Shown in pieces: positions 1 through 10,770 of a DNA stretch of 36,600 nucleotides. Location of the stretch: the NCBI GenBank assembly GCA_027365195.1, contig DAHXNW010000104.1:1-36600 (forward strand). Reading direction: 5' to 3'. The stretch's first letter is position 1. Each line of letters starts with the position of its first letter. The notes beneath the pieces are model-generated. The model made no database searches. It worked only from the letters and a program-made list of their open reading frames with translations, and was not told the DNA's origin. The translations under genes and the position numbers were made by a program. The DNA comes from Acetobacteraceae bacterium. Its GTDB lineage: Bacteria; Pseudomonadota; Alphaproteobacteria; Acetobacterales; Acetobacteraceae.

Positions 1-35
1 GGGCCGGCGCCGGCTAAAGCTATCATGCTCTAAGC
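1..35. repeat. Right end of a truncated copy (copy D) of the dispersed palindromic element
   Basis: gggccggcgccggctaaa matches the right arm of copy B (gggccggtgcaggctaaa, 16/18); element cut by window edge. Confidence 0.5.
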
Positions 36-3515: not shown

Positions 3516-3626
3516 CTTGAGCCTGCACCGGCCCGCCCCCCCCACCCGGCCACCCACGACAGTATGCTGAACGGGGGCCGGGTGGGAGCGCGGGCCGGTG
3601 CAGACTCAGACTTGAACATATCAACC
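3505..3626. repeat. Dispersed palindromic element, copy A, between convergent hrpB and ahpD
   Basis: Arms tgcaccggcccg...cacccggcc / ggccgggtg...cgggccggtgca around cagtatgctg; outer ggttg/caacc. Confidence 0.75.
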
Positions 3627-6120: not shown

Positions 6121-6236
6121 ACATCATGGAAAGCCTGCACCGGCCCGCACCCCCACCCGGCCACCCATGCGAGTATACTGACGTGGGTGGCCGGGTGGGG
6201 TGCGGGCCGGTGCAGGCTAAACTTGAGCATGTCATC
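6121..6236. repeat. Dispersed palindromic element, copy B
   Basis: Left arm 6132-6167 and right arm 6184-6218 are near-perfect reverse complements (35/36 nt, one extra c); loop contains gagtatactg. Confidence 0.85.
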
Positions 6237-8017: not shown

Positions 8018-9322
8018 ATGCCCGAGGCCCTACCGCACGCCGCCGCGCTGAGCCCGGCCGACATCCGCCGCGCGGTGCTCGCCTCGGTCATCGGCAACGC
8101 ACTCGAATGGTTCGATTTTCTGATCTATGGCTCGTTCGCCGCAGTGATCGGCGCGGTGTTCTTCCCCTCCAGCGACCCGACGCTGTCGCAGATCCTGGTG
8201 TTCGCGACCTTCGGCGTCGGCTTCGTGGTGCGCCCGTTCGGCGGCATCCTGATCGGCATGTATGCCGATCGCGCCGGGCGGCAACGCGCGCTGTCGCTGC
8301 TCATCGTGCTGATGGCCGCCGGCACGGTGGCGCTCGGCCTCACGCCGAGCTACGCCAGCATCGGCATCGGAGCGCCGATCATCATCGTCGCCGCACGCAT
8401 TCTGCAAGGGATCTCGGTCGGCGGCGAATTCGCCTCGGCGACAGCGATGCTGGTGGAATACGCGCCGCCCTCGCGCAAGCTGTTCTACGGCTCGTTCCAG
8501 ATGGTGTCGCAATCCTTCGCCGTCACCTTCGCCGCCGGCTGCGCCTTTCTGCTCACCGCCCTGCTCAGCCCGGCGCATCTGCATGCCTGGGGCTGGCGGC
8601 TGCCGTTCCTGCTCGGCGGGCTGGTCGGGCCGATCGGCTTTTACATCCGCCGCCGCGTCGCCGAATCGCCGGAGTTCGTGCGCCTGCGCCAGACCATGCC
8701 GGCGCGGCAGCGCGCGCCGATCGCACTGCTGCTGGGCCACCATCTGCCGCGCGTGCTCTGCGCCATCGGCGTCATTCTCGCCGGCACCGCATCGACCTAT
8801 CTGTGGAATTTCTATCTGCCGGTCTATGCCACCCATACGCTCGGCCTGCCGGCGACGGCGCCGCTGCTCGGCGTGGTCGCCGGCGGCTTGCTCGGCATGA
8901 TCATCAACCCGCTCTCTGGCAAGCTCGCCGACCGGGTCGGTGCCTATGCGGTGTTCCTGCCGCCGGTGATCCTGGCCGGGGTGCTGGCGTTGCCGATGTT
9001 CGCCTTCATCGTCGGCCATCCGACCCGGCTCAATCTGTTCGCCCTGCAGGTCGGCGCCACGCTCGTGCTGGGCTGGATGGCCGGACCGATGCCCGGCCTG
9101 CTCGCCGGCATGTTTCCGACCGAAGTGCGCTCGACCGGCATGGCGCTGTCCTACAACGTCTCGGTGACTTTATTCGGCGGCCTCGCGCCATTCACCGTCA
9201 CCTTCATCACCCGGCTCACCCACAGCAGCATGTCGCCGGCCTATTACCTCACCGCCGCCGCCGCGCTCTCGCTGATCCTGGTGCTCGGCTTCCGCCCACG
9301 CGAGATGCGGGCGCAAGCATGA
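8018..9322 (+). CDS. MFS transporter, metabolite:H+ symporter (MHS) family
   Basis: VLASVIGNALEWFDFLIYGSFA, RPFGGILIGMYADRAGRQRAL, GISVGGEFASATAMLVEYAP; RBS aagga before ATG 8018. Confidence 0.9.
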   Translation: MPEALPHAAALSPADIRRAVLASVIGNALEWFDFLIYGSFAAVIGAVFFPSSDPTLSQILVFATFGVGFVVRPFGGILIGMYADRAGRQRALSLLIVLMAAGTVALGLTPSYASIGIGAPIIIVAARILQGISVGGEFASATAMLVEYAPPSRKLFYGSFQMVSQSFAVTFAAGCAFLLTALLSPAHLHAWGWRLPFLLGGLVGPIGFYIRRRVAESPEFVRLRQTMPARQRAPIALLLGHHLPRVLCAIGVILAGTASTYLWNFYLPVYATHTLGLPATAPLLGVVAGGLLGMIINPLSGKLADRVGAYAVFLPPVILAGVLALPMFAFIVGHPTRLNLFALQVGATLVLGWMAGPMPGLLAGMFPTEVRSTGMALSYNVSVTLFGGLAPFTVTFITRLTHSSMSPAYYLTAAAALSLILVLGFRPREMRAQA

Positions 9323-9331
9323 TGGGGCCAT

Positions 9332-9461
9332 GGTAGTGGGTCAGTTTGGAAAGCAAGCCGGCGCCGGCCCGCACCCCCACCCGGCCACCCATTCAGTATA
9401 CTGTCGTGGGTGGCCGGGGGGGGGTGCGGGCCGGTGCCGAACTTCAAACTGACCCACTACC
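9332..9461. mobile_element. MITE-like palindromic element, copy C, with terminal inverted repeats and 8-bp flanking direct repeat
   Basis: ggtagtgggtcagttt...aaactgacccactacc perfect 16-bp TIR; ggggccat at 9324-9331 and 9462-9469 directly abuts both ends; centre cagtatactg. Confidence 0.8.
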
Positions 9462-9552
9462 GGGGCCATTGCCGATGGTGCCATGCGGCCATTAGAAAGA
9501 CTGCGAACGATCGCCCCGAGCCCGCCCCTTCATATCCAGGAGTTGCCTGCCG

Positions 9553-10770
9553 ATGACCGACCCCGCCTCCCGCCGTGCCCTGCTCGGCGGTTTTGCCGCA
9601 GGCGCACTGATGCTCGCCCGTCCGGGTGCTTCCCGCGCGCAGCCGGCGAGCGTGAAGCTCGGTCTGCTGCACCCGGTCACGGGCGCCTTCGCCTATGAGG
9701 GCGGACAGGGTCGGCGCGGTGCGCAGTTGGCGATCGAGGAGATCAACGCGGCGGGCGGCATCCGCTCGCTCGGCGGCGCGCGGATCGAGCCGGTGCTGGC
9801 GGATGCGCAATCGAGCCCGGACGCGGCGGTCGCCGAGGTCGATCGGCTGGACAGCGCCGGGGTTTGCGCCATCCAGGGCGGCTTCGCCAGCAACATCGGC
9901 CTCGCCGCCACCCAGCAGGCGGCGCGGCACGATCTGCTGTTCCTGTGCGATGTCTGCGTCGCCGATCAGATCGTGCAGCGCGGCCTCACCAACACCTTCC
10001 GCTTCGGCCCCGGCTTCGGCAAAGTGGTGCAGACTGGTCTCACCAACCTCGTGGCGATCAACGATGCCGCCGGCAAACCGGCGAAGACCGTGGTGATCGT
10101 GCATGAGGACGGCGCCTTCGGCGGCGGCATGGCGAAGCTGCTGGCCGCCCAGTTGCCCGGCCTCGGCTTCACCGTGCTCGACTCGCTGAGCCACCCGACG
10201 CCGCAGCGCGATTTCACCACCATCGCACTCCGTGTGCGCAAGGCCGCCCCCGATCTGATCATCCCGTCCAACTACAAGAACGAATTCATCCTGATGGCGC
10301 GCGCCTTCGCGCAGCAGCACGTGCGCCCGAAGGTCGCGACCTACGCCATTCTCGGCGGCGCCGCCTCCAACCCCTCCTTCGCGCAGCAATATCCCGCACC
10401 GGCGCAATACATCATGGATTGCAACAACTGGTACGATCCGCTGAAGCCGCTCTCGCAGGCATTCCGCAAGACCGTCGCGGCACGCGGCTGGGATCTGACC
10501 TATGAGCTGATGTTGAACTACGCCGGCGCCCGCGTGCTGGCGCATGCGATCGAGGCCGCCGGGAGCACCGATCGCGCCAAAGTCATCGCCGCCATGGCCG
10601 CGTCGAGCTACAGCGACACCATCATGCCCTATGGGCCGACGCATTTCGTGAATGGACAGAATGCAGGCGCGCAGCCGATCAACACGCAGATCCAGAACGG
10701 CCAGATCACCGTCGTCTATCCGGCGCAATATGCGTCGGCCAAGGTCGTCTACCCGCGTCCAGCCGGCTAA
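9553..10770 (+). CDS. ABC transporter substrate-binding protein (branched-chain amino acid/amide type)
   Basis: Tat-like N-terminus RRALLGGFAAG; VKLGLLHPVTGAFAYEGGQGRRGAQLAIEEINAAGG. Confidence 0.9.
   Translation: MTDPASRRALLGGFAAGALMLARPGASRAQPASVKLGLLHPVTGAFAYEGGQGRRGAQLAIEEINAAGGIRSLGGARIEPVLADAQSSPDAAVAEVDRLDSAGVCAIQGGFASNIGLAATQQAARHDLLFLCDVCVADQIVQRGLTNTFRFGPGFGKVVQTGLTNLVAINDAAGKPAKTVVIVHEDGAFGGGMAKLLAAQLPGLGFTVLDSLSHPTPQRDFTTIALRVRKAAPDLIIPSNYKNEFILMARAFAQQHVRPKVATYAILGGAASNPSFAQQYPAPAQYIMDCNNWYDPLKPLSQAFRKTVAARGWDLTYELMLNYAGARVLAHAIEAAGSTDRAKVIAAMAASSYSDTIMPYGPTHFVNGQNAGAQPINTQIQNGQITVVYPAQYASAKVVYPRPAG

Follow-up and report, generated by a model that had tools for sequence, protein, structure and literature searches.

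A near-invariant hairpin core in an IS1-like-related MITE of an Acetobacteraceae genome and in MITEs with unrelated ends

MITEs are usually viewed as shrunken copies of one insertion sequence (IS). In the IS1 family the target-site duplication (TSD) is 8-9 bp long and the ends start with GG; the MITEs that duplicate TNA are, we assume, of the IS5 type (IS1031 and IS427 groups). Mosaic intergenic elements are also known, and one of them, RIME, has an alphaproteobacterial distribution. The REPs tagged by GTAG/CGTC are palindromes of 20-40 bp, and the CGTC repeats are stated to be missing from the Acetobacteraceae (PMC3733652). Finally, the intrastrand triplex motif TM is about 36 nt long, combines two purine stretches with a pyrimidine stretch in a perfect triplex and is reported not to be transposon-associated (PMC4666352).

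With these systems in mind, we have analysed an element in a stretch of 36,600 nt (hereafter the window; positions 1 to 36,600 of contig DAHXNW010000104.1, our C289) from an Acetobacteraceae bacterium, whose assembly (GCA_027365195.1) amounts to 2.93 Mb in 353 contigs and is 86% complete. A search of the open-licence literature found no description of the hairpin core that the element carries, which is not proof of absence.

The window element and its end family

A preliminary description had read positions 9324-9469 as a MITE-like palindrome with perfect 16-bp terminal inverted repeats (TIRs), a flush 8-bp duplication, long arms folding around a palindromic centre and no coding capacity in its 130 bp, lying just past the stop codon of an MFS gene. 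All of these features are present (Table 1). The sequence GGTAGTGGGTCAGTTT at 9332-9347 is the perfect complement of 9446-9461, and the pairing in fact goes one base deeper on each side (9348/9445), so that the TIRs are 17 bp long (GGTAGTGGGTCAGTTTG); GGGGCCAT abuts both of them. The 33-nt arms are 94% complementary, the 15-nt loop between them holds CAGTATACTG, and a single DNA strand of the element folds into one hairpin of -70.4 kcal/mol, where shuffled sequences average -27.3 (z = -14). The MFS gene ends at 9322, two bases before the left GGGGCCAT, and a periplasmic binding protein gene begins at 9553, past the element. Having the testable defining features of a MITE (130 bp, non-coding, 17-bp TIRs), the segment 9332-9461 is one, that is to say, a non-autonomous transposon copy.

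Table 1. Positions of the MITE at 9324-9469 and of the other core copies in the window
Feature	Position	Strand	Remarks
Type A end TAGAGCATGATAGCTTTAGCCGGCGCCGGCCC on a truncated core arm	1..32	-	contig begins inside
Second core copy	3520..3606	+	between convergent genes; eroded right arm resembling type A (ACTTGAACATATCAACCTCTA)
Third core copy	6132..6218	.	flanks eroded, type-A-like
Left 8-bp TSD GGGGCCAT	9324..9331	.	flush direct repeat
Left TIR GGTAGTGGGTCAGTTTG	9332..9348	+	the 2301-bp IS1-like element and further loci have ends of this family
Linker between left TIR and core, GAAAGCAAGC	9349..9358	+	linkers unlike between the two ends and between copies
Hairpin core, conserved	9359..9439	-	arms 9359-9391 and 9407-9439, loop 9392-9406; copies in host and other genomes; covariation
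Linker between core and right TIR, AACTT	9440..9444	+	
Right TIR, reads CAAACTGACCCACTACC on the + strand	9445..9461	-	
Right 8-bp TSD GGGGCCAT	9462..9469	.	flush direct repeat

The further genomic copies with these termini that the preliminary description had proposed to look for do exist: with up to 2 mismatches allowed, the end sequence is matched 23 times in the host genome and once in the reversed control. Exact 8-bp TSDs surround elements of the same end family on two other host contigs (GCCGACAA on C74 and, on C145, CCAAATCC around a 67-bp element whose core is deleted), in genome G160 (GGAAAATC) and around a short element in genome G156 (GCCCGCCG). The duplication is identical at 8/8 positions in five short elements, with sequences that are all different; in two more copies it is lost or mutated. 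By chance, an exact inverted pair of 16 bp abutted by exact direct repeats of 8 bp would arise with a probability of about 4^-24 per placement and, by our own estimate, about 1e-7 over all window positions and spacings up to 500 bp; a chance origin is excluded by the four further short elements and one full-length IS that have exact 8-bp TSDs, all of them different.

This IS, another object of the proposed searches, is a 2301-bp element in the relative G156 (L155, G156:C2:698-2998) with ends GGTAGTGTCTCAGTTTG and an exact 8-bp TSD, CATCGCTG. Its ends are identical to those of the G160 MITE and belong to the same family as those of the window element (15/17 identical); another G160 element (L127) has one end of the GGGTC variant and the other of the GTCTC variant, and so ties the two variants together. 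The 292-aa protein encoded by the 2301-bp element matches IS1 transposase models, with scores under the curated cut-offs of both (NF033558, 68.3 bits vs 100; PF03400, 24.0 vs 24.1), and the ends GGTAGTG together with the 8-bp TSD fit the IS1-family rule. Moreover, the host genome holds a decayed C-terminal remnant of this transposase, 62% identical and with an internal stop, followed by a related end, GGCAGTGTCTCAGTTTGCA. The matching IS with its related ends and the host remnant give a good answer to the question of the mobilising transposase that the preliminary description had raised: the window MITE was probably moved by an IS1-like enzyme.

The 2301-bp element also has passenger ORFs, one of them with a SocA/Panacea antitoxin-like domain. 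Elsewhere in G160, a 1.4-kb segment with TIRs of the same end family (L138/L151, G160:C23:18248-19652) was rejected as an autonomous IS, its 331-aa ORF having no Pfam match and no transposase being present. The one-ended L038, L042 and L043 were considered as ends of full ISs, but their flanking ORFs are ordinary genes or unrelated, and we regard them as truncated arms; a perfect inverted flank on G160:C4 was judged to be an assembly fold-back at the contig end.

The hairpin core in the host and in other genomes

While the related ends, the exact but different 8-bp TSDs and the 2301-bp element uphold the MITE reading, the GC-rich arms, which the preliminary description had treated as part of this MITE, are not private to it. 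They form a separate conserved module, common to MITEs with unrelated ends in the host and in other alphaproteobacteria. This module is a palindromic core of about 80 bp with a near-invariant loop, CGACAGTATRCT (also labelled CGACAGTATNCT; the canonical reading of the window copy, CCACGACAGTATACTGAATGG, is on the minus strand).

Searching the host genome with the whole element gave many more matches than the ends explain, most of them on the interior only, and a half-core pattern had 98 forward and 91 reverse matches against 0 in the control, where one palindromic copy can score on both strands. The stretches retrieved yielded at least 94 distinct copies, a lower bound: type A ends (TAGAGCATGAT), one or both, are present in 39, an end of the window MITE (type C) in 9, and AATAAGTGC or GTTTGCAGTCC ends in a few; in 37 we recognise none, many of these last resembling eroded type A elements. 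Elements with a type A end on either side, 21 in number, measure 127 bp for the most part and are nearly all TA-bounded, as are most of the classifiable host copies, a TA that can belong to the end itself instead of being a duplication. In the window, too, none of the other core copies has the ends of the MITE described here. We have therefore rejected the view of this element as a single-family MITE only, the core being mostly found outside these ends. In an alignment of 85 copies, most core columns have conservation values of 0.9-1.0 and the columns just outside 0.3-0.7. No clean MITE pair differing solely by the presence or absence of the core was found; the coreless 67-bp copy retains core-arm remnants and thus looks like a deletion, and in L047 the left end of the window MITE is joined to a right type A end, with the core lost. 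Besides the start of the window itself, 2 of 15 readable contig starts fall within a core, and such repeats account for part of the fragmentation of assemblies of this kind.

Of 398 genomes from the same family, 39 contain the core; they represent 22 of 102 genera, and roughly one in four of the matches is weak and partial. An exact-pattern scan named Neoroseomonas, Roseomonas, Belnapia, Endobacter, Acidisoma and others among the Acetobacteraceae and, beyond the family, Roseospira, Rhodospira, Tistlia and the sphingomonad Hephaestia; three sphingomonad plasmids carry the core at 87-89% identity. Phage records gave no match. Different ends or partner hairpins accompany the core in each lineage. 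In Neoroseomonas and its relatives it lies in elements of about 141 bp with ends GAGACCGTTTGAGAATG, 12 of 25 having an identical TNA on both sides, and on a Novosphingobium plasmid a similar arrangement has, by eye, TGA on both sides. The 8-bp and TNA types thus show the same core travelling in elements whose duplications clearly differ. For neither the TNA nor the TA type was an autonomous partner identified. In one genome, tandem half-arm repeats CACTTGAAGTCCGGCACCGGCCCGCACCCCCGTGCTT lie ahead of a complete core close to the end of a contig (L153, G104:C5), which may be an assembly artefact.

The origin and maintenance of the core

The explanation that we favour, and hold to be rather probable, is that several transposases mobilise the core, a modular hairpin, in trans via interchangeable ends, the window element being an IS1-like-related MITE that carries it. 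A transposase supplied in trans would recognise the ends of about 17 bp, move the element and leave the 8-bp duplication. Its payload would be the core, also present in two or more further MITE types whose ends are unrelated (TNA and TA) and which were presumably moved by other transposases; we infer that IS1-like and other DDE enzymes did the moving. The core may swap ends either by recombination through the arms or by module capture, and it may persist either because the hairpin helps the element or because it is harmless between genes. Of this shared-module reading, the data show the ends and their duplications, the IS that matches them, the sharing of the core, the covarying arms, the location between genes and the presence or absence among sister species.

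As regards the covariation, 91% of arm positions pair among 191 aligned core copies, with 249 compensatory cells versus at most 87 in 200 shuffles, which leave relatedness in place; hairpin-templated repair could yield the same pattern. The loop is likewise conserved, but the search patterns favoured it. Within the arms, 128 of the 191 copies have a G-quadruplex pattern in the G-rich arm. One variant has GGGTGCCAAGGGGAGATGACG in its right arm (L004, L060, L065, L159, L165, L166, L176 and L192) and differing outer ends, as if core segments had been exchanged between copies; a sub-type (L072, L160, L162 and L195) has paired double changes in the two arms, CACCTTCCCGC with GCGGGAAGGTG instead of CACCGGCCCGC with GCGGGCCGGTG.

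Such strong conservation of the arms beside eroded ends, together with the near-invariant unpaired loop, could also be that of a selected chromosomal hairpin (an RNA 3' end, an mRNA stabiliser or a protein-binding site) that MITEs have merely picked up, and all 61 host copies scored with a simple codon-based gene caller are intergenic. However, the orientation of their neighbouring genes is not clearly biased (37 tandem, 12 convergent, 12 divergent), which led us to reject a strict terminator role, and the core has no run of T. Nor does it belong to a known RNA family, Rfam giving only sub-threshold matches, mostly to microRNA models that fit any long hairpin. Moreover, gene conversion among so many copies would likewise homogenise the core, the loop was favoured by the search patterns, and presence or absence differs between sister species, so that we find selection as a chromosomal hairpin improbable.

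This last difference is seen at a Neoroseomonas locus where two genomes have a 120-bp core-bearing stretch between two genes; in sister genomes the gap measures -2 to 7 bp or is filled by 27-44 bp of different sequence, or in one case by an unrelated insert of 500 bp. The empty-site comparison that the preliminary description had proposed, applied to this core-bearing insertion, thus does find empty sites. A core-bearing element has therefore been gained or lost within Neoroseomonas. As the TSD of this polymorphic element is eroded, gain as the direction rests on the number of empty sites.

Is the core perhaps mobile in its own right, a palindrome that enters existing MITEs or hairpins by means of an unknown enzyme or of replication-linked template switching? 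Its homology has a sharp edge across unrelated surroundings, 37 of the 94 host copies are without recognised ends, and direct repeats GCATTCTCAA flank the core in the Neoroseomonas element L106 (by eye). In type A copies (e.g. L015, L017, L158 and L177) the core faces one way or the other with respect to the two unlike outer arms about equally often, again by eye, which suggests either recombination of the arms or frequent re-placement of the core. Nevertheless, no consistent duplication surrounds the core itself, many of the copies that lack recognised ends resemble type A elements that have eroded, TIR-bounded units enclose most of the intact copies, and there is no enzyme candidate; we consider independent mobility unlikely.

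Taken more broadly, the evidence leaves us evenly divided on whether one conserved hairpin, in at least two alphaproteobacterial orders, serves several unrelated MITE families as an exchangeable module, or moves between them by itself, and outlives and changes transposon ends. A near-invariant hairpin in MITE types of differing ends and TSDs, across many genera, makes a testable case for a non-coding module that passes between transposon families; alternatively, the hairpin may be actively useful to these families.

Comparison with known systems

As in IS1-derived MITEs, the window element is short and non-coding, has TIRs in common with a transposase-bearing element and has a TSD of fixed length, here 8 bp. 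It differs from them in that its interior is a hairpin common to unrelated MITEs and not a remnant of the parent IS, and in the sub-cut-off scores of the IS1-like protein. The Neoroseomonas elements, with their GAGACCGTTTG ends and TNA on both sides, resemble the TNA-duplicating, IS5-type MITEs but hold the same core as the 8-bp-TSD MITE, and we found no transposase gene with their ends.

The GTAG/CGTC-tagged REPs and their RAYTs (PMC3733652) likewise provide high-copy, short intergenic palindromes that are sometimes combined with other hairpins. It is very hard to see the core as a REP/BIME-type repeat moved by a RAYT (Y1) transposase, however: PF01797 (Y1_Tnp) is absent from 11 of 12 genomes, one of them single-contig and the host being 86% complete, although control genomes matched; the core arms are longer than such REPs; the GTAG tag was not seen at the hairpin base; and the CGTC type is reported missing from the Acetobacteraceae. 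The TM motif (PMC4666352) is also a GC-rich intergenic repeat with C-rich and G-rich arms, but was rejected as an identity for the core on a by-eye comparison, the core being a covarying hairpin inside MITEs in which no exact mirror repeat was seen. Finally, the RIME and BIME mosaics similarly combine several hairpin modules in varied order between genes, whereas here one core is common to TIR-bounded, TSD-flanked elements of different types.
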